Source: Actinomycetes bacterium
Lineage (GTDB): Bacteria; Actinomycetota; Aquicultoria; UBA3085; Oleimmundimicrobiaceae
Length of the DNA stretch: 39,482 nucleotides
Assembly: GCA_030614255.1 (NCBI GenBank)
Contig: JAUWKI010000011.1
Coordinates: 1 to 39,482 of the forward strand
Direction of reading: 5' to 3'
Shown here: positions 25,915 through 38,739 of the stretch, in pieces
Layout of the letters: every line of letters begins with the position of its first letter
How positions within the stretch are numbered: position 1 is the first letter of the stretch
Position numbers and translations under genes: made by a program
The notes under the pieces: generated by a model
The model's input: the letters and a program-made list of their open reading frames with translations, nothing else
What the model was told of the DNA's origin: nothing
Databases searched by the model: none

Positions 25915-27015
25915 GTGAAAAAAGAAAATATACTCATTTGGCTCTCAGGAGCCGTTGTTGGTCTTTTGGCAGTTCTTCTTGTTCTGTTTGGCAATCCTTT
26001 AAACATGGGCTTTTGTATCGCTTGTTTTGAGCGCGACATCGCCGGAGCTCTGGGACTTCATCGGGCCGCAGTTGTTCAGTACATCCGCCCGGAAATTTTG
26101 GGTATAGTCTTAGGGGCTTTTATTGCCGGGTATGTCGGCAAGGAATTTCGCCCTGAAGGTGGCTCCTCTACCATTACCCGTTTTTTTCTAGGAATCCTTG
26201 TAATGGTTGGAGCCCTTGTTTTTCTCGGTTGTCCTTTGAGGATGATGATTCGCCTCGGCGGAGGTGACCTGAATGCTCTTGTGGCGCTCATCGGTTTCAT
26301 CGCCGGAATTGCAGTTGGCGTTTATTTCTTAAAATCAGGGTTTGATCTTGGAAGAGCTCGCGAGCAGCGAACTTTTAGCGCATGGGTTCTTCCCATCGTT
26401 ATGGTCGGTCTTTTACTTTTACTCATACTTGCTCCTGTTTTTAATCCTGATGCGGGTGGCCCCATCTTCTTTAGCGCGGAAGGCCCCGGCGCTCAGCACG
26501 CAGCCGTTGCTCTTGCTTTAATCGCGGGACTTTTGGTCGGGTATTTAGCACAAAGGTCTAGACTATGTCTGGCTGGCGGTACACGGGACTGGTTGTTGAT
26601 AAAAGACAGTTATCTTATCAAGGGATTTATAGCTATTCTTGCTGTTGTATTGATTGGAAATATTTTGGTTGGAGTTTTAGGTATTACAGGGGTAAATACA
26701 CCTGCTTTTAATTTGGGATTTGAAGGACAACCAGTCGCTCACGCGGTGCATCTCTGGAATTTCTTAGGGATGGCTTTGGTTGGCTTGGGCTCGATTCTTT
26801 TAGGAGGTTGCCCCCTTAGGCAATTGGTTTTGGCCGGAAACGGAAACACCGATTCCGCGGTGGCAGTTCTGGGTATGATTATAGGCGCTGCTATTTCGCA
26901 CAACTTCATGCTCGCGGCAAGTCCCAAAGGCGTGCCCGATTTTGCAAAATATGCGGTTATTGGTGGATTGATTATCTGTCTTGCTGTTGGAGCTTTAAAT
27001 CGGGAAAAAGCTTAA
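25915..27015 (+). CDS. yedE: YedE-family putative selenium transporter
   Basis: Multi-TM; NPLNMGFCIACFERDIAGALGLHRAAVVQYIRPEI, FLGCPLRMMIRL, LLGGCPLRQLVLAGNGNTD. Confidence 0.9.
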   Translation: MKKENILIWLSGAVVGLLAVLLVLFGNPLNMGFCIACFERDIAGALGLHRAAVVQYIRPEILGIVLGAFIAGYVGKEFRPEGGSSTITRFFLGILVMVGALVFLGCPLRMMIRLGGGDLNALVALIGFIAGIAVGVYFLKSGFDLGRAREQRTFSAWVLPIVMVGLLLLLILAPVFNPDAGGPIFFSAEGPGAQHAAVALALIAGLLVGYLAQRSRLCLAGGTRDWLLIKDSYLIKGFIAILAVVLIGNILVGVLGITGVNTPAFNLGFEGQPVAHAVHLWNFLGMALVGLGSILLGGCPLRQLVLAGNGNTDSAVAVLGMIIGAAISHNFMLAASPKGVPDFAKYAVIGGLIICLAVGALNREKA

Positions 27016-27102: not shown

Positions 27103-27678
27103 ATGAAAGAAGTTGATGTTAGAGGGTTGGCTTGTCCACAACCGGTTATCTTGACCAAGAAAGCGATTGAGGCGGGTGCTGAGCAAATTGAGGTCTTGGT
27201 GAGCGGAGACGTTGCTCGAGATAATGTTAGAAGGATGGCAGAAAAATTGGGTTGCTCTGTTTCCTATGAGAAAAAAGAGGGCTATTGGCGACTAAATATC
27301 AAATCTGGTAGCAAAGTTTGCAAAAAGGTGGTTGAAAAGGGAAAATCGACGGTTATCTTCATAAATAGTAGCAGGATTAGGAAAGGGAGCGATGAGTTGG
27401 GCGAAGTTTTGATGAAGGCCTTCTTCAACACGCTTTCCCAGAGCGAGCCCTGGTTTGATAAAGTCGTTTTCATGAATGGTGGAGTTGAGCTGGTTGCAGA
27501 AGGTTCTCCGGTTTTAGATGCCCTCCGTTGTCTGCTTGATAAGGGCGTTCAAATTCTTGCCTGCGGGACATGTCTCGACTACTTTGGCTTAAAGGAGAAG
27601 ATAGCCGTTGGAACCATCTCAAATATGTATGATATAGTCGATGCTTTCAATGAAGCCGCGAAAGTAGTTACAGTTTAG
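27103..27678 (+). CDS. yedF: Selenium metabolism protein YedF (TusA domain + DsrE-like domain)
   Basis: VDVRGLACPQPVILTKKAIE fused to VIFINSSRIRKGSDELGEVLMKAFFNTL...ILACGTCLDYFGLKEKIAVGTISNMYDIV. Confidence 0.92.
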   Translation: MKEVDVRGLACPQPVILTKKAIEAGAEQIEVLVSGDVARDNVRRMAEKLGCSVSYEKKEGYWRLNIKSGSKVCKKVVEKGKSTVIFINSSRIRKGSDELGEVLMKAFFNTLSQSEPWFDKVVFMNGGVELVAEGSPVLDALRCLLDKGVQILACGTCLDYFGLKEKIAVGTISNMYDIVDAFNEAAKVVTV

Positions 27679-27689
27679 AGGGGAAAATC

Positions 27690-28844
27690 ATGTCGATTTA
27701 TCTTGACAATGCCGCAACTTCATACCCCAAGCCATCGTGCATGCTTGAGGCATGTAAGGTTTTCACTGAGCAAGTGGGGGCAAATCCCGGCCGCTCAGGT
27801 CATCGGCTCTCTGTTGAGGCGGGTCGAATTTTGTATGACGCTAGAGCTTCTGTGGCGCAGCTTTTCAATATCGAAGACCCCTTGAAAATAATCTTTACTT
27901 ACAATGCGACCTATGCCATAAATATGGCTCTTTTCGGGTTCTTAAAACAGGGGGATCACGTCATAACCAGTTCAATCGAGCATAATGCCATCGCGAGGCC
28001 CCTTCGGTATCTTGAAAGTCAGGGTGTTGAACTTACGCGTGTACCGGTTGACCCAAAAACTTGTCAAGTTGACCCCATAGATTTTAAGAAAGCCATGAGG
28101 CCAAACACGAAACTTATAGCCATTCTTCATGGCTCGAACGTGACCGGTGTGATTTTTCCGGTAGCCGAGATAGGTAAAATTGCCCGGGAAAATAACGTGT
28201 TATTTCTCGTTGATTCCGCTCAAACTGCCGGAGTTTATCCCATCGATGTTGAGGCAATGAATATCGATTTTCTCGCCTTTACGGGACACAAGTCTCTCTT
28301 TGGTATGCAGGGGACAGGCGGGCTTTATGTTAAAGAGGGGACAAACTTGCTTCCTTTGGTCAGAGGTGGCACGGGCAGCAAATCGGAAGAAGATATCCAA
28401 CCCGATTTTATGCCTGATTGTCTTGAGAGCGGAACGCCCAATACACCCGGCTTAGCTGCTTTGGCAGCAGGAGTGAAATTTGTGCTTGCTGAGGGAATAT
28501 TAAAGATTCGTTCTCGCGAGGAAGAACTTATAAAGCAGTTAATAGACGGACTTTCTGCAATTAATGGTGTAAACCTGGTTGGAAATATGACGTTAGATTG
28601 CCGGTTGCCGGTTATTTCTTTCAACGTGAGCGGACTTTTGCCTTCGGAGGTTGGGCAAATTCTTGATGAAAAGTACGATATTATGGTAAGAGTAGGGCTT
28701 CACTGTGCTCCCTGGGCTCACCAAGCAATGGGAACTTATCCAAAAGGAACTGTTCGCGTAAGTTTAAGTTATTTAAACAAAAGCGATGAAGTTAAATATT
28801 TTTTAAACGCAGTTAATGAAATTAGCGAAAAAAGGAGAACTTAG
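27690..28844 (+). CDS. Class V aminotransferase / cysteine desulfurase family protein
   Basis: YLDNAATSYPKP, TYNATYAINMALFGFLKQGDHVITSSIEHNAIARPL, FTGHKSLFGMQGTGGLYV, VRVGLHCAPWAH. Confidence 0.93.
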   Translation: MSIYLDNAATSYPKPSCMLEACKVFTEQVGANPGRSGHRLSVEAGRILYDARASVAQLFNIEDPLKIIFTYNATYAINMALFGFLKQGDHVITSSIEHNAIARPLRYLESQGVELTRVPVDPKTCQVDPIDFKKAMRPNTKLIAILHGSNVTGVIFPVAEIGKIARENNVLFLVDSAQTAGVYPIDVEAMNIDFLAFTGHKSLFGMQGTGGLYVKEGTNLLPLVRGGTGSKSEEDIQPDFMPDCLESGTPNTPGLAALAAGVKFVLAEGILKIRSREEELIKQLIDGLSAINGVNLVGNMTLDCRLPVISFNVSGLLPSEVGQILDEKYDIMVRVGLHCAPWAHQAMGTYPKGTVRVSLSYLNKSDEVKYFLNAVNEISEKRRT

Positions 28845-29091: not shown

Positions 29092-29988
29092 TTACCTGTT
29101 GAGTACGAAATCAATGAATTCCTTTTGGGCCTTAGTCATTAATCTATTCTTGTTATAAATTAGGTAAATATCTCTTGTTAGACGCATATTTGCAAAGGGA
29201 ATCGTTTTAATTGACCCAAGAGATAAATCTCTCTCCGCTGCAAATTTCGAAATGATTGAAATTCCAAGGTCTGCTTCAACAGCAGCAAGTATTGCTTGAA
29301 TGCTCCCAAGCTCCATAGTGACATTAAGATTTTCTTCTGGAATGTTTTGATTCTTTAGCAGGTCTTCAAATGTTTTTCGGGTGGCGGAACCTTTCTCACG
29401 AAGAATCAACGGGCAAGATATAGTTTCTTTAAGGGTAATAGTTTTTTTCTTAGCAAGTTGGTGTTGGGGGGGAGTAATAAGTATTAGTTCATCCGAAGCA
29501 AACTTTTTGCTTTCAAGGTTATCTTCCGAGATTTTTCTACCTACGAAAGCGATGTCTATCTCATGATTAGCAAGCTTCTCCACGATATCATCCGTGTCTG
29601 CAATGAATAGTTCGGGCTCCACATCGGGGAACTTCTTTTTGAATTGACCCAACATTTTGGGGACTAAATATTCCCCCGGGGTGGTGCTTGCTCCAAGCGC
29701 AAGTTTTCCACCAACTACATTCTTTAATTTATTCAAGGATTCTTTTAGGAGATTATTGTTTCTTACCATATCTTTAGCAAAGCGATAAAAGATTTTTCCG
29801 GTCTCAGTGGGTCTGGCTTTATTCCCTGATCTGTCGAGAAGTATCTGCCCATACTCTTTTTCCATTGCCCGTATCTGAAAGCTAATGGCGGGCTGAGACA
29901 CATTCATTGCTTTTGCAGTTTTGGAAAAGCTTCTTTTTTCAATTACCATGATAAATGTTTCAAAATAATTAAGATTCATGATAAGCAA
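29092..29988 (-). CDS. LysR-family transcriptional regulator
   Basis: MNLNYFETFIMVIEKRSFSKTAKAMNVSQPAISFQIRAMEKEYGQILLDRS; substrate-binding domain; divergent from selD. Confidence 0.93.
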   Translation of the reverse strand: MLIMNLNYFETFIMVIEKRSFSKTAKAMNVSQPAISFQIRAMEKEYGQILLDRSGNKARPTETGKIFYRFAKDMVRNNNLLKESLNKLKNVVGGKLALGASTTPGEYLVPKMLGQFKKKFPDVEPELFIADTDDIVEKLANHEIDIAFVGRKISEDNLESKKFASDELILITPPQHQLAKKKTITLKETISCPLILREKGSATRKTFEDLLKNQNIPEENLNVTMELGSIQAILAAVEADLGISIISKFAAERDLSLGSIKTIPFANMRLTRDIYLIYNKNRLMTKAQKEFIDFVLNR

Positions 29989-30015: not shown

Positions 30016-30049
30016 AATGCTTACTTCGACTTTCTTCATAAGTAGCATT
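30016..30049. promoter_or_regulatory. Imperfect inverted repeat AATGCTtACTT ... AAGTAGCATT in the lysR-selD intergenic region
   Basis: Dyad located between the divergent genes; candidate LysR-type operator. Confidence 0.4.
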
Positions 30050-30101
30050 TTAAAAAAAGTGTTATACTTTTAATAAGTAAATTTTTTTAAGGAGCATTAA
30101 A

Positions 30102-31142
30102 GTGACCAAAAAGGTAAAACTTACCAAATATTCTACAAAGAGTGGTTGAGCTGCAAAGTTGAGTCCGTGTGACTTAGCCTCAATACTTAAAGACGTTCCT
30201 TTCAAAAAAGATAAGAATCTTTTGAGAGGAATTGATGATGCTGAGGATGCCGCTGTCTATCGGCTAACCAATGAGCTTGCAATTGTACAGACGGTGGATT
30301 TCTTCACCCCAATAGTGAATGATCCCTATCTCTTTGGTCAGATAGCTGCCGCAAATTCCTTAAGTGATATATACGCGATGGGCGGAGAGCCTTTAATTGT
30401 TTTAAATCTGGTCATGTTTAATCCGGAAATTGGCTTGGATGTGCTCAAAGAGATACTTCTTGGAGGTCGCGATAAGATTGAAGAATCAGGTGCCATTGTA
30501 GCAGGCGGGCACACCGTCGAAGATAAGGAGCCGAAATTCGGTTTTTCAGTTACAGGGGCGGTCCATCCGGACAAATTTATATCGAACGCCAATGCAAAGA
30601 TTGGGGACAAATTGGTTCTTACTAAGCCCATTGGGATGGGCATACTTGCCACCGCATTGAAGGGGGAGCTTGTTGAAGAAGAAGATATTATGGATGCAAT
30701 TAATTCAATTAGGGCATTAAACAAGGACGCATCTTTGGCGATGAAGGAAGTTGGGGTCAATTCCTGTACCGATATAACCGGTTTTGGTTTTTTGGGCCAT
30801 CTTATGGAAATGCTTTTGGCGAGCGGTACCGCTGCCGTTATTTGGGCTGATGCCATCCCTAAATTTGAGAGAGTATTTGAGTTTGCGAAGATGGGCTTGG
30901 TCCCGGCCGGGGCTTGTTCCAACCGTAAATATGTTGGGAATCGTGTTCGGTTTGACTCAAAGATAAATGAAATTGACCAAGATATTTTGTTTGACCCTCA
31001 AACATCCGGAGGGTTGCTGATTTCTGTTCCCACTGACCGTTGTGACGATTTAGTAACTGAGCTGAAGAGGCGAAATGTTTCTACTCGAGCGGTTATTGGC
31101 GAGATTGTAAGTGGGAATGTAGGAACAATTGAGGTTGTTTAA
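30102..31142 (+). CDS. selD: Selenide, water dikinase SelD, selenocysteine-containing (in-frame TGA at 30147-30149 read as Sec)
   Basis: GTG 30102 after AAGGAG; MTKKVKLTKYSTKSG-U-AAKLSPCDLASILKDV...; downstream canonical SelD (DDAEDAAVYRL, TVDFFTPIVNDPYLFGQIAAANSLSDIYAMGG, DPQTSGGLL). 346 aa. Track ORF 30159 is truncated. Confidence 0.93.
30147..30183 (+). promoter_or_regulatory. Bacterial SECIS-like element following UGA
   Basis: Arms TTGAG 30159-30163 / CTCAA 30179-30183, inner TC/GA pairs closing a CGTGT loop, placed about 10-35 nt after UGA. Confidence 0.55.
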
Positions 31143-31206
31143 CGATAAAAGAAGAAGCCATAAATAAATTTTATTTGATTCATTTTTATTATTTATAGTA
31201 TTATTT

Positions 31207-31234
31207 AAGCTGCTTTATGGCAGCTTATTTTTTT
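31207..31234 (+). terminator. Rho-independent terminator (possible attenuator)
   Basis: AAGCTGC-TTTATG-GCAGCTT-ATTTTTTT. Confidence 0.85.
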
Positions 31235-31244
31235 GAGGGTGGTT

Positions 31245-32012
31245 ATGGAACCGAAGATAGCCGTTTGTGCAAAACCGATGAATGTTCTTAGTAAAACAGT
31301 GGATTATGCCATTGAAAATGATTATCCTGCCATCGATTGGTCTTTTGATTCCAAAGGCCTCTTGGCGCTCAAGAGCGATGGTCAAATGTTTTTTAATCTT
31401 ATGAGAGAGAATGAAGACATAGAAGTTCGTTATCATTGCTTTATGGAAAACGTTGAGCTCGCCCATGTTGACCTAAATGTAGCCGAAGATTCATTGGATA
31501 ATTTCAAGTTTTGTGTAGATAAGATTTGCGAGTTTGGCGGTCATTTTATGACCGTCCATATTGGTTTATGGTCAAAGACCTCCGAGGAAGTAAGCTGGAA
31601 TAATGCCGTGAAAAATCTTTATTCTCTGGTAGAGTACGGTAAAAATAAAGAAGTTACAGTTTGTTTGGAAAATTTAAAAAAAGGGTTTACCAGCGACCCC
31701 GGACTTTTCCAAAAAATAATTGAGCTTACAGAAGCAAAGGTTACCTTCGATCTTGGACACGCAAACTCCAGTATTCATGCAAAAAATGGTTTCATTGGTT
31801 TAGATTTTCTTAAGTTGATGGCTCCGCACATAGCCAATGCGCATGTTTATGAGAGAGAAGAACCTCATCATATTGTTCCACAAGACCTCAACCTTATAGG
31901 ACCCATGCTTGAGCATTTGCTTGAGACCGATTGCGACTGGTGGGTTATCGAGTTATCGGATAGGCAAGAAGTTGAACATACGAGGTCGCTATTAAAATCT
32001 CTCTTTTCATAA
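31245..32012 (+). CDS. Sugar phosphate isomerase/epimerase-like TIM-barrel protein
   Basis: VCLENLKKGFTSDPGLFQKIIELTEAKVTFDLGHANSS...IANAHVYEREEPHHIVPQD; xylose isomerase-like AP endonuclease 2 fold signature. Confidence 0.75.
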   Translation: MEPKIAVCAKPMNVLSKTVDYAIENDYPAIDWSFDSKGLLALKSDGQMFFNLMRENEDIEVRYHCFMENVELAHVDLNVAEDSLDNFKFCVDKICEFGGHFMTVHIGLWSKTSEEVSWNNAVKNLYSLVEYGKNKEVTVCLENLKKGFTSDPGLFQKIIELTEAKVTFDLGHANSSIHAKNGFIGLDFLKLMAPHIANAHVYEREEPHHIVPQDLNLIGPMLEHLLETDCDWWVIELSDRQEVEHTRSLLKSLFS

Positions 32013-32164
32013 GTTTTTAATTATTTAAGAGAGATTTTTCTTCAGTCCAAAAATTCTTCGCAAAAATCGTCAGAGAAATAAACGTATCGATACTTGGAAA
32101 TCATTTTTGAAATTAGAAGTTTGGGTTATACTCAAATTATATTTTGGCTGTTGAAGGCGGGAGG

Positions 32165-32986
32165 ATGGGAGAGATCAAATTTCTGAAAAGCGTCAAAAAA
32201 AATATATCCTACCAGCTTAAGAACGAAGTTTCCAAAGCAAAGAGTTTAGCGATTGGAGAAATTGCCGGAAGAGATAGCATAGCTGCGATTATAAAGGCAG
32301 CGGAACAAAACGATTTGGACGCTGTGCTACCCACTATTGTCTATACGGGAACAGAATATGGAGAACGTGGAGTTCTCGAGGACAACGTGAAATATCTGCG
32401 TGGACGATTGGACGACTTGGGTTTTTCCGCTGGTCATGAAAAGTTTGTTTTGAACCGAATTACTCTAGGTGAGCCTGCTTTGTGGCACGCTTTAAACGGT
32501 AGATTCCTTTCGGTTCTTTTTAAGAGATTTGGTTTCTGTTCCTCTTGTTTGGGTTGTCATCTCTACATGCATTTAATTAGGGTCCCTTTGGCCTGGCACA
32601 TTGGGGCGGATAAGATTATTAGCGGCGAGAGAAAATCTCATGCTGGAAGTATAAAGATAAATCAGCTACCTGTGGCTCTTGATGCCTACAAAGAGGTGCT
32701 TAGTTATGCGGGAGTAAAACTTTTGTTTCCCTTAAAAGAGATTGTATCAAATGATGAGATTGAGTCTCTCATAGGTTCGGGCTGGAGGCAGAGGAAAAGA
32801 CAGTTGAATTGTGTGTTAAGTAGTAATTATCGAGCTTTAGATGACGAAGTGGAATATGATGAAGATAATTTGAAAAGATATTTTGATGAATTTGCGGTGC
32901 CCGTCTCCAAAGAGGTCTTAAAGTTGTGGAAAGAAGATAAAGAAGTCGATTATATTAAAGTGGTTAGAAAGATTCTCGAAAGCTAG
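32165..32986 (+). CDS. PP-loop (adenine nucleotide alpha-hydrolase-like) protein with CxxCxxC motif, function unknown
   Basis: AIGEIAGRDSIAAIIKAA resembles SGGxDS PP-loop; CSSCLGCHLYMHL; SGERKSHAGSIKINQ. Confidence 0.6.
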   Translation: MGEIKFLKSVKKNISYQLKNEVSKAKSLAIGEIAGRDSIAAIIKAAEQNDLDAVLPTIVYTGTEYGERGVLEDNVKYLRGRLDDLGFSAGHEKFVLNRITLGEPALWHALNGRFLSVLFKRFGFCSSCLGCHLYMHLIRVPLAWHIGADKIISGERKSHAGSIKINQLPVALDAYKEVLSYAGVKLLFPLKEIVSNDEIESLIGSGWRQRKRQLNCVLSSNYRALDDEVEYDEDNLKRYFDEFAVPVSKEVLKLWKEDKEVDYIKVVRKILES

Positions 32987-34904: not shown

Positions 34905-35840
34905 ATGAGTAGAAAAACTTTGCAAACGTTTCGAAAACTCGTTCAATCTTTAGTGTTTTTTTCAATAATTCTTATTCCTCTTTTGAGTTCATATCGAATT
35001 AATCTATCAAGCGAGGGCCTAGTCTCCGTTGGGCGGCCGGAATTAAAGGCGGTATTTTGGTGTTTTGATAGAGTTATTGGTGGTCTTACCGATGTAAATC
35101 TAATTGGAAGTTCCGTATGGTCTGTAAACATTCTTGGTTTTAACATAATGGACCCACTTGCCGTCGCCAGTCATATTTTTGCCACACGCCATATTTACCC
35201 ATTGGTCTTATTAAGTAGCATCATTCCTCTTATTTTTACTCTCATTTTTGGAAGAATATTTTGCGGATGGATTTGTCCGTTCAATTTTATTATGGAGATG
35301 AATGCCAAGCTGCGGTCTTTCTTGCAAAAGAAGAATGGCATGGGTCTGGAAGACGTAATTTTTAGCCGTAAACATAAGTATTTTGTCCTCGGCCTAGGTC
35401 TCTTATTGTCTGTCATATTTGGCATCCAATTGCTCCCTGTAATCTATCCGCCCGCAGTTATCGGAAGGGAAATTGCATCTCTTGTTTCTTATCGCGGAGC
35501 TGGGATTGGTGCTTGCTTAATAATTCTTCTGATTGTCTTCGAATTGTTTTTTTCGAGAAGATGGTGGTGCAAATATATTTGCCCCGGTGGAGCTCTTTAT
35601 TCTCTTCTGGGCTCGGGACGTATTCTTCAAATTCAAAATGATGTGGATAAGTGTAATGGCTGTCTAAAGTGCAAAAAGGTTTGTCCGCTGGGGTTGAATC
35701 CCGCCGAAGGCGAAGTTGGTATGGAATGCACAAATTGTGGAGTTTGTTATTCGAACTGTCCGAAGAAAGCTCTGAAATTCAAGTTTGGAAAACCCGGGAT
35801 AAACCTCTCCTTATTAAAAAGAAAAAAAGGGAAACCATAG
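34905..35840 (+). CDS. NapH/polyferredoxin-like 4Fe-4S membrane protein
   Basis: Multiple TM segments, FGRIFCGWICPFNFIMEMN, RRWWCKYICPGGALYSLLG, CNGCLKCKKVCPLGLNP, CTNCGVCYSNCP. Confidence 0.9.
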   Translation: MSRKTLQTFRKLVQSLVFFSIILIPLLSSYRINLSSEGLVSVGRPELKAVFWCFDRVIGGLTDVNLIGSSVWSVNILGFNIMDPLAVASHIFATRHIYPLVLLSSIIPLIFTLIFGRIFCGWICPFNFIMEMNAKLRSFLQKKNGMGLEDVIFSRKHKYFVLGLGLLLSVIFGIQLLPVIYPPAVIGREIASLVSYRGAGIGACLIILLIVFELFFSRRWWCKYICPGGALYSLLGSGRILQIQNDVDKCNGCLKCKKVCPLGLNPAEGEVGMECTNCGVCYSNCPKKALKFKFGKPGINLSLLKRKKGKP

Positions 35841-35850
35841 TTTTGAAAGT

Positions 35851-36504
35851 TTGATGTTTGTGAAAGGAGATAAAACTTTGGAAATAAAGAGGAGAGACTT
35901 TTTAAAAAAGACCGGGAGTTTGGCGTTGGGGGCTGCGGGAATTTCCCTCCTGTTTTTAGGGAAAGATGTTTACGGTGAGGAATTAAAAATCCGATTGCTC
36001 AACAGCTATTACGAGAGTGGTTTATTAAGACCACCCGGAGCGGTAGAAGAAAATCAGTTTTTAAGCAAGTGCATTCGGTGCTTAAGATGTGCGGAAGTCT
36101 GCCCGGTTGGGGCCATAAAATGTGCTGATACCGGAAGTCTTCTAGCCCTCGGCACTCCTTTTATTGTTCCAAAAGAAAGAGGATGCACTCTCTGTATGAA
36201 TTGTACGAGGGTTTGTCCCACTGGGGCCTTAGAGAAAATTGAAGATGACCAGGATGTTGTCCGAAAAAAGGTGAAGCTAGGCGAGATTGTGTTGGATGAG
36301 TCAATTTGTTCGGCTCATACGGGAAAAAGAAAATGCGCGGCTTGTTTTTACGCATGTCCGTTCTCTGGTAAAGCAATAGAAATTATGCCTCCCGACTTAA
36401 AACCAAAGGTAAATGTGAACAGTTGTGTGGGCTGTGGCCTTTGCGAGGAGGTGTGCACTCAAGGAGCAATAAGAATTAAGCCTCATGGTTTAAATAAGGC
36501 TTAA
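35851..36504 (+). CDS. NapG-like TAT-exported 4Fe-4S ferredoxin (true start possibly TTG 35878)
   Basis: IKRRDFLKKTGSLALGAAGISLLFLG twin-arginine signal; CIRCLRCAEVCPVGAI, CTLCMNCTRVCPTGAL, CVGCGLCEEVCTQGAI. Confidence 0.9.
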   Translation: MMFVKGDKTLEIKRRDFLKKTGSLALGAAGISLLFLGKDVYGEELKIRLLNSYYESGLLRPPGAVEENQFLSKCIRCLRCAEVCPVGAIKCADTGSLLALGTPFIVPKERGCTLCMNCTRVCPTGALEKIEDDQDVVRKKVKLGEIVLDESICSAHTGKRKCAACFYACPFSGKAIEIMPPDLKPKVNVNSCVGCGLCEEVCTQGAIRIKPHGLNKA

Positions 36505-36576
36505 GAAAGGAAACATTAATTCAAGAGAGGTGAGAAGAGTATGAAGGATAAAAAGATGTTAAAGGAAGAGGAATTT

Positions 36577-38739
36577 ATGAAAAAGAGGGGAGGAATTACT
36601 AGAGCGCAATTTTTAACTCTTATGGAGTGGACTGCGCTGGGCATCGGTTGTGGTGGACTCGGGTTCATAACTGGCTGTGGGACGAAAAGCGGAGTCGAAG
36701 GTGTGGGAGAAAATGCCACCACGGAGCTAATCAACACGGTGTGTAGAATCTGTGGTCCTCGCTGCGGCATGACGGCCACTGTTAAAGGTGACAAAATTGA
36801 GAAACTTGAAGGTTGGAAGGAGTTTAAAAGCAAAGGGTATCTATGTCCCATGGGCCTCTCCCTAAAAGAGTTTGTCTATGCGCCCGACCGTCTCAAGTAT
36901 CCTATGAAAAAAGAGGGCGGGAGTTGGAAGAGGATTTCCTGGGAAGAAGCTCTGGATACAATCGCCGAAAAGTTAAATGGAATTAAAAAGGAGTACGGCG
37001 CCGAAGCTGTGGATTTTCACTTTGGGAAGGCGTTGGTGGCGCAGGAGAGTAGGTATTACATGGAGAGACTTTGCAATGCTTTTGGCACTCCTACATATTC
37101 GTCGGTAGGGAGTCAATGTCATGGTGCCAAATTGATAGGCCATAAACTGACTTATGGCGGTATCCCTAGTCCTGATTATAAAAATACTCAGTGCGTTATA
37201 GTTTGGGGTTGTAATCCCGAGGCCTCAAATCCTTTGGCAGCGGAAAGTATTCTAAAAGCCAAAGAAGGGGGAGCCAAGCTAATTGTTATTGATCCCGTAA
37301 AAATTCCACTTACAAAAGAGGCCGACGTGCATTTACAGGTTAGGCCGGGTACCGACGGAGCCCTAGCGCTTGGCATGCTAAATATAATTATATCGGAGGA
37401 CCTCTACGACAAAGAATTTGTGGAAAATTGGACCGTAGGTTTCGATAAACTTGTTGATTTGGTCAAGGGATATTCTCCAGAGAAGGTTTCCGAGATAACT
37501 TGGGTTCCGGCCGATATGATTAGAGAAGCTGCTCGGATATATGCGAGCAACAATCCTGCTTGCATTTGCCAAGGGAACGCACTCGATCTTCACACAAATA
37601 CCATTCAGATGATTCGCTCCATCGCCATACTCCAAGCAATTTGTGGCAATTTGGATGTGGCAGGAGGGGGTCTAGTGGGAGGCGGGGCCAAGCTTGCTGA
37701 TATCTCACTTGAGAAAAAACGTCCGGAGATAAAGCCGGTGGGTTCAACCGAGCACCCCTTATTTTATGAATTTAGACATCAAGCTCAAGCCAACTACTTG
37801 CCGGAGGCGATACTTTCGGAGAAGCCCTATCTAATTAAGGCGATGGTTGTTGTAGGTGGCAATCCACTTTTAACTGGTCCGAATGCCAACAAAATGGAAA
37901 AGGCGCTTAAAAAGCTTGACTTTGTCGTGGTCATGGACTTTTTTATGACTCCGACGGCTGAGTTGGCTGACATTGTTCTACCCGCTGCCACCTTCTTTGA
38001 ACGAGCTGACCTTGTTACAAGAGGTAAAATAATGTTTTTGGATAGGGTAATACCGGAATACGAGGAAAGTTGGCCCGATTGGAAGTTCATTTTTAAATTG
38101 GGTAAGAAGTTGGGGTATGAGGAATATTTCCCCTGGGAAAATGTAGAAGAAGCTTTCGATCACAGATTAAAACCACTGGACATCACGGTCGAGAAACTGA
38201 AGAAAGAGCCATTAGGTATTGCTTTGAGCGAGAAAAGTTATAAGAAATATGAGAAGGGTGGATTCAAGACACCCTCGAAAAAAGTTGAGATTTACTCAGA
38301 GAAGTTGGAGAAATTTGGATATGATCCTCTCCCAACTTTTGTAGAGCCCAACGAGAGCCCCATAAGCAAGCCCGATTTGGCTGAGGAATACCCCTTGGTT
38401 CTAACCTCAGGAGCGAGGATACCCGTATATATGCATACGATGATGCGGAATATTGAATCTTTGCGGAAGATGGTTCCGGACCCTGTTATAAACATTAATC
38501 CTGTGAAAGCGAAGGAGTTAAACATCGAAGATGGTAACAAGGTGATTGTTGAAACGCCTCGGGGTAGCATTGAAGTAAAAGCCAAATTTACCAAGGAAAT
38601 TGATTCCCGAGTAGTTCACGTCCCGCATGGGTGGAGCGATCCGGCCAACGTGAATGTCTTAACTGACGATGAGGTTTTGGATCCTATCTCAGGTTTTCCT
38701 GCTTACAAATCGTTATTGTGTAAGGTTGAGAAAGCTTGA
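36577..38739 (+). CDS. Molybdopterin (bis-MGD) oxidoreductase catalytic subunit, Cys-type
   Basis: CRICGPRCGMTATVKGDKI...GYLCPMG Fe-S motif, SSVGSQCHGAKL active-site Cys, VVGGNPLLTGPN, C-terminal molydop-binding domain. ATG 36577 chosen. Confidence 0.9.
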   Translation: MKKRGGITRAQFLTLMEWTALGIGCGGLGFITGCGTKSGVEGVGENATTELINTVCRICGPRCGMTATVKGDKIEKLEGWKEFKSKGYLCPMGLSLKEFVYAPDRLKYPMKKEGGSWKRISWEEALDTIAEKLNGIKKEYGAEAVDFHFGKALVAQESRYYMERLCNAFGTPTYSSVGSQCHGAKLIGHKLTYGGIPSPDYKNTQCVIVWGCNPEASNPLAAESILKAKEGGAKLIVIDPVKIPLTKEADVHLQVRPGTDGALALGMLNIIISEDLYDKEFVENWTVGFDKLVDLVKGYSPEKVSEITWVPADMIREAARIYASNNPACICQGNALDLHTNTIQMIRSIAILQAICGNLDVAGGGLVGGGAKLADISLEKKRPEIKPVGSTEHPLFYEFRHQAQANYLPEAILSEKPYLIKAMVVVGGNPLLTGPNANKMEKALKKLDFVVVMDFFMTPTAELADIVLPAATFFERADLVTRGKIMFLDRVIPEYEESWPDWKFIFKLGKKLGYEEYFPWENVEEAFDHRLKPLDITVEKLKKEPLGIALSEKSYKKYEKGGFKTPSKKVEIYSEKLEKFGYDPLPTFVEPNESPISKPDLAEEYPLVLTSGARIPVYMHTMMRNIESLRKMVPDPVININPVKAKELNIEDGNKVIVETPRGSIEVKAKFTKEIDSRVVHVPHGWSDPANVNVLTDDEVLDPISGFPAYKSLLCKVEKA

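Follow-up and report, generated by a model that had tools for sequence, protein, structure and literature searches.

A selD gene with an in-frame TGA at its catalytic codon, encoding a predicted selenocysteine-type selenophosphate synthetase in an Actinomycetota genome

The selD locus and its neighbourhood

The window, by which we mean the whole stretch of 39,482 nucleotides that was analysed, contains the following genes and features around selD:

25915–27015, plus strand: yedE, putative selenium transporter (TIGR04112, 480.6 bits against a cut-off of 200)
27103–27678, plus strand: yedF, selenium-metabolism protein (TIGR03527, 207 bits against a cut-off of 110)
27690–28844, plus strand: cysteine desulfurase / selenocysteine (Sec)-lyase-like protein (TIGR01977, 463 bits against a cut-off of 377)
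29092–29988, minus strand: LysR regulator of a selenium-metabolism-associated family, divergent from selD (NF040786, E 1.8e-93, 312.8 bits against a cut-off of 250)
30102–31142, plus strand: selD, selenide,water dikinase (selenophosphate synthetase), predicted Sec form of 346 aa (TIGR00476, AIRS and AIRS_C domains, conserved GTG start with ribosome-binding site)
30147–30149, plus strand: UGA, predicted to be read as Sec, at the catalytic position, residue 16 (column alignment with the E. coli and Aquifex SelD proteins)
30162–30174, plus strand: predicted bacterial SECIS apical hairpin AGUC-CGUGU-GACU (best stem in 25 Sec-type relatives, with compensatory change)
31206–31227, plus strand: terminator-like hairpin followed by a T-run, 3' of selD (9 pairs, tail TTTTTTT, -13.0 kcal/mol)

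This neighbourhood is one that has been described for selenium-using bacteria (PMC5322559). The cysteine desulfurase resembles SclA, yet stays under the SclA cut-off (362.5 versus 525 bits). The terminator-like hairpin after the gene suggests that selD is transcribed alone, with terminator-like matches in the region showing only a slight excess over shuffled sequences (3 versus 2.3). The intergenic region separating selD from the divergent LysR gene contains an imperfect inverted repeat (TGCTTACTT...AAGTAGCA, 30018–30047), a possible LysR site that is weakly kept in the aligned relatives. Further downstream on the plus strand we observed a xylose-isomerase-like TIM-barrel protein (31233–32012) with a weak, below-cut-off match to the cobamide-remodelling enzyme CbiR, and a 280-aa ORF (32144–32986) that adjoins a phosphoglycerate-mutase-like gene and has no Pfam or NCBIfam match. 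A molybdenum/tungsten cofactor riboswitch (RF01055, 34420–34530, plus strand, 57.8 bits) precedes iron-sulfur proteins (34905–36504) and a 732-aa molybdopterin oxidoreductase (36541–38739).

The TGA codon at the catalytic position

Read from the sequence, the selD frame runs on the plus strand from GTG 30102 to the TAA ending at 31142, with TGA 30147–30149 as its single interruption; when UGA is taken as Sec, this gives a product of 346 aa with the N-terminus VTKKVKLTKYSTKSGUAAKLSPCDLAS. The mechanical ORF list holds a version starting at TTG 30159 and extending to 31142 (stop codon at 31140–31142). The initial annotation had instead traced the frame upstream through one TGA to GTG 30102 with an AAGGAG-like ribosome-binding site, and the sequence agrees: AAGGAG, the putative ribosome-binding site, is present at 30089–30094, 7 nt 5' of the GTG, and the three nearest relatives, all family members, likewise have the GTG start and a similar site. 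Within the family, the 13 codons 5' of the TGA show a pN/pS of 0.29, which points to purifying selection, whilst the phylum-wide value is 0.36 versus 0.38 for the downstream stretch: the codons before the TGA are under purifying selection in the same manner as those behind it, and hence are translated in one protein with them. Together with the TGA found in the matching column of the relatives (below), this confirms that the TGA-interrupted frame of 346 aa is real, being the result of neither chance nor a read error.

The recoded protein matches the selD model TIGR00476 with 371.8 bits (E 2.5e-111; cut-off 125) as well as NF002098 with 320.3 bits (cut-off 299), and contains AIRS and AIRS_C domains. 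Its catalytic motif reads YSTKSG-U-AAKLSP as compared to YSHGAG-C-GCKISP in E. coli, and the UGA was found to sit at the catalytic residue, as had been claimed from the sequence: its counterparts in the alignment are Cys/Sec13 of Aquifex SelD and the catalytic Cys of the E. coli enzyme. Positions U16, K19, D49, D66, N85, D89 and D224 are invariant in the 21 SelDs compared, with the LT motif and the catalytic column also invariant across SelD. The features by which SelD is recognised are thus present, namely a catalytic Cys/Sec-x-x-Lys motif near the N-terminus, which has been described as essential (PMC4210487), and the invariant Asp/Asn residues. In case of E. coli SelD (PDB 3u0o, E 5.7e-67), gene family and catalytic position are shared, but the E. 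coli enzyme has two Cys in its motif (GCGCK), the first where the present protein has Sec and the second where it has Ala. The best solved relative is SelD from Aquifex aeolicus (PDB 2yye, 2zod and 2zau; E 7.1e-73 for 2yye), which shares the S-G-[C/U]-A-A-K motif, including the Ala where E. coli has its second Cys, but is distant, stems from another phylum and has Cys in the crystallised chain. The natural A. aeolicus selD gene encodes Sec at the catalytic site.

The catalytic column was then read in 106 SelD loci, with TGA in 83, TGC in 16 and TGT in 7; the pattern used allowed Sec or Cys only and 4 loci lacked the motif, meaning that rarer residues may exist. A search for SelD in 60 genomes, from the genus outwards, returned matches mostly with exactly one TGA. 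The matching column is TGA in the four closest relatives, which belong to the same family as the source genome (proteins 90, 82, 76 and 59% identical), and in most SelD genes examined in the class and phylum; Cys-form selD genes exhibit TGC or TGT where the Sec forms have TGA. The in-frame UGA is therefore placed in a column occupied by Sec or Cys in homologues, as anticipated for a selenoprotein gene. This TGA column is common to Sec-type SelD from Actinomycetota, clostridia, Deltaproteobacteria and others, most of which possess a hairpin of the GGUC-N5-GACC type; the present gene differs from these by sequence divergence only, with an A-U outer pair (Ser AGT / Leu TTA) in the closest family members of the window. 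SelD with Sec counts among the classical selenoprotein families (PMC1794560, PMC4561486): Sec occurs in 19% of the SelDs from the reference prokaryotes of one survey, always at one and the same position (PMC4561486), and the UGA-recoded SelD genes of Aquifex and Haemophilus ducreyi have been listed (PMC1242214).

Scanning the window for in-frame TGA codons revealed no convincing Sec gene besides selD. Two candidates were rejected: the match to the yedE model does not include TGA 25888, which precedes that gene, and in the molybdopterin enzyme of 732 aa, Cys-His-Gly takes the place of the Sec-His of FdhA (placed by eye).

Selenocysteine machinery and the predicted SECIS hairpin

The source genome (1.44 Mb in 52 contigs, 97.2% complete) contains the following genes for Sec synthesis and insertion, together with two further genes with in-frame TGA:

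Contig C43, 93941–94033, minus strand: tRNA-Sec (74 bits, anticodon TCA)
Contig C43, 94287–96182, minus strand: selB (418.5 bits)
Contig C43, 96239–97612, minus strand: selA (631.5 bits)
Locus L128, 1480–4239, minus strand: formate dehydrogenase alpha (FdhA) gene with in-frame TGA at the Sec motif
Locus L131, 1201–2265, minus strand: FdhA gene with in-frame TGA at the Sec motif

The genes for tRNA-Sec, SelB and SelA are located side by side on the minus strand (C43:93941–97612), and selD thus resides in a genome with the complete set expected for a selenoprotein. The two FdhA genes belong to a classical selenoprotein family and are predicted to encode further selenoproteins; their Sec-His motifs are intact (ARLUHAPTVAG and ARIUHSATVAA), and both genes would be split by a standard ORF caller. 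One SelD was found in the genome, the other two matches being 27–28% identical and scoring in the range of related ATP-binding enzymes such as ThiL and HypE. A profile search of the genome for the selenouridine enzyme YbbB/MnmH gave no match, with the profile recovering that of E. coli; the search for GrdB (glycine reductase) gave no match in the genome, nor for the control. The FlpD-type subunit is present in one copy without an in-frame TGA.

Beginning 12 nt after the UGA, a SECIS-like hairpin is predicted with a 4 bp stem and a 5-nt loop, which G-U and U-A pairs can lengthen to 30160–30176. In 25 Sec-type relatives from the phylum, one of them the gene of the window itself, every 4-bp stem with a loop of 3–14 nt was considered between 30 nt 5' and 72 nt 3' of the TGA: AGUC/GACU is the best stem of the region and is fully paired in 92% of them. 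The outer pair is G-C in 19 of the 25 and A-U in the remaining 6, with no mismatch, and in this swap a change between Gly and Ser codons (GGT/AGT) goes along with one between Leu codons (CTN/TTA); on the tree, the swap requires at least four switches, three of which are forced by well-supported branches. Across 12 aligned relatives the hairpin cells are paired in 100% of cases, versus 8–50% for shifted partners. In 23 Cys-type selD genes the stem does not rank near the top and frequently has disrupted pairs, so that the hairpin is largely absent. Amongst 83 Sec-type genes from many phyla the stem leads, but only 63% retain the full 4-bp form in exact register, and the SECIS geometry thus differs between lineages. 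The folding energy is unremarkable for a 71-nt stretch (z -0.84) and better for a 42-nt stretch (z -2.58), and Rfam gave no match at the site at the gathering threshold. A stem-loop just 3' of the UGA, as found in selenoprotein genes, is thus provided by the predicted hairpin.

The initial annotation had foreseen selA, selB and tRNA-Sec elsewhere in the genome and had proposed a search for a SECIS element: all three genes occur in one cluster, and a hairpin with covariation follows the UGA. We also looked for a lack of selA/selB/selC and for another base at 30147, and encountered neither. Every prediction that could be checked held, which supports the reading of selD as a selenoprotein gene.

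Decoding of the UGA codon and its implications

That the gene of the window encodes a Sec-containing selenophosphate synthetase is, in our assessment, close to certain. Frame, TGA conservation, machinery genes, hairpin covariation and gene context are established by sequence comparison, whilst Sec insertion, catalysis, SelB binding and LysR regulation are assigned through homology. The ribosome would start at GTG 30102 and reach the UGA at codon 16, where SelB carrying Sec-tRNA-Sec, bound to the hairpin just downstream, would insert selenocysteine. SelD would then use Sec together with Lys19 of the U-x-x-K motif to convert selenide and ATP into selenophosphate, which SelA would employ in Sec-tRNA synthesis for SelD itself and for at least two formate dehydrogenases. 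Since the only SelD found is the Sec form, synthesis of the fully active enzyme should depend on selenophosphate that SelD itself has produced; such self-support of Sec-type SelD has been noted before (PMC1794560).

Decoding of the UGA as a residue other than Sec (Trp by a near-cognate tRNA, or Cys/Ser on tRNA-Sec), at least under low selenium, could also start this self-dependent loop: with a single SelD found, the first molecule would be either inherited from the mother cell or made with a mis-inserted residue. As the full SelA/SelB/tRNA-Sec set and the covarying SECIS-like hairpin argue for Sec as the main product, we consider this explanation improbable. Even less probable is a start at TTG 30159 with the upstream TGA as a true stop, which is what a standard ORF caller returns and which would leave SelD N-terminally shortened, possibly inactive or divergent. 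The comparative evidence is strongly opposed to this: the codons 5' of the TGA are conserved (pN/pS 0.29–0.36), the ribosome-binding site precedes GTG 30102, the TGA is kept across the class with TGC/TGT in Cys forms, and the catalytic residue would be lost from a column that, like the LT motif, is invariant across SelD. That the codon is in truth TGC/TGT, misread during sequencing or assembly, is an explanation for which we found no support; it is already refuted by relatives at the genus, family, class and phylum level, whose independently assembled genomes carry the TGA as well.

Returning to the UGA as a Sec codon, the finding of no SelD other than this predicted selenoprotein leads to a further reading, albeit an unlikely one: the UGA might act as a built-in selenium sensor, with low selenium leading to less SelD and the Sec system becoming locked off, thereby forming a two-state inherited switch, perhaps together with the divergent LysR regulator.

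Sec-type SelD has long been known from many bacteria, which makes the gene described here an ordinary member of this familiar variant and leaves the view of selenium metabolism unaltered. What changes is the annotation: translation by the standard code strips the catalytic N-terminus from the sole SelD found in the genome, and this is now corrected. In addition, the predicted hairpin is a clear example of compensatory change within a bacterial SECIS element, in an Actinomycetota lineage with small genomes.
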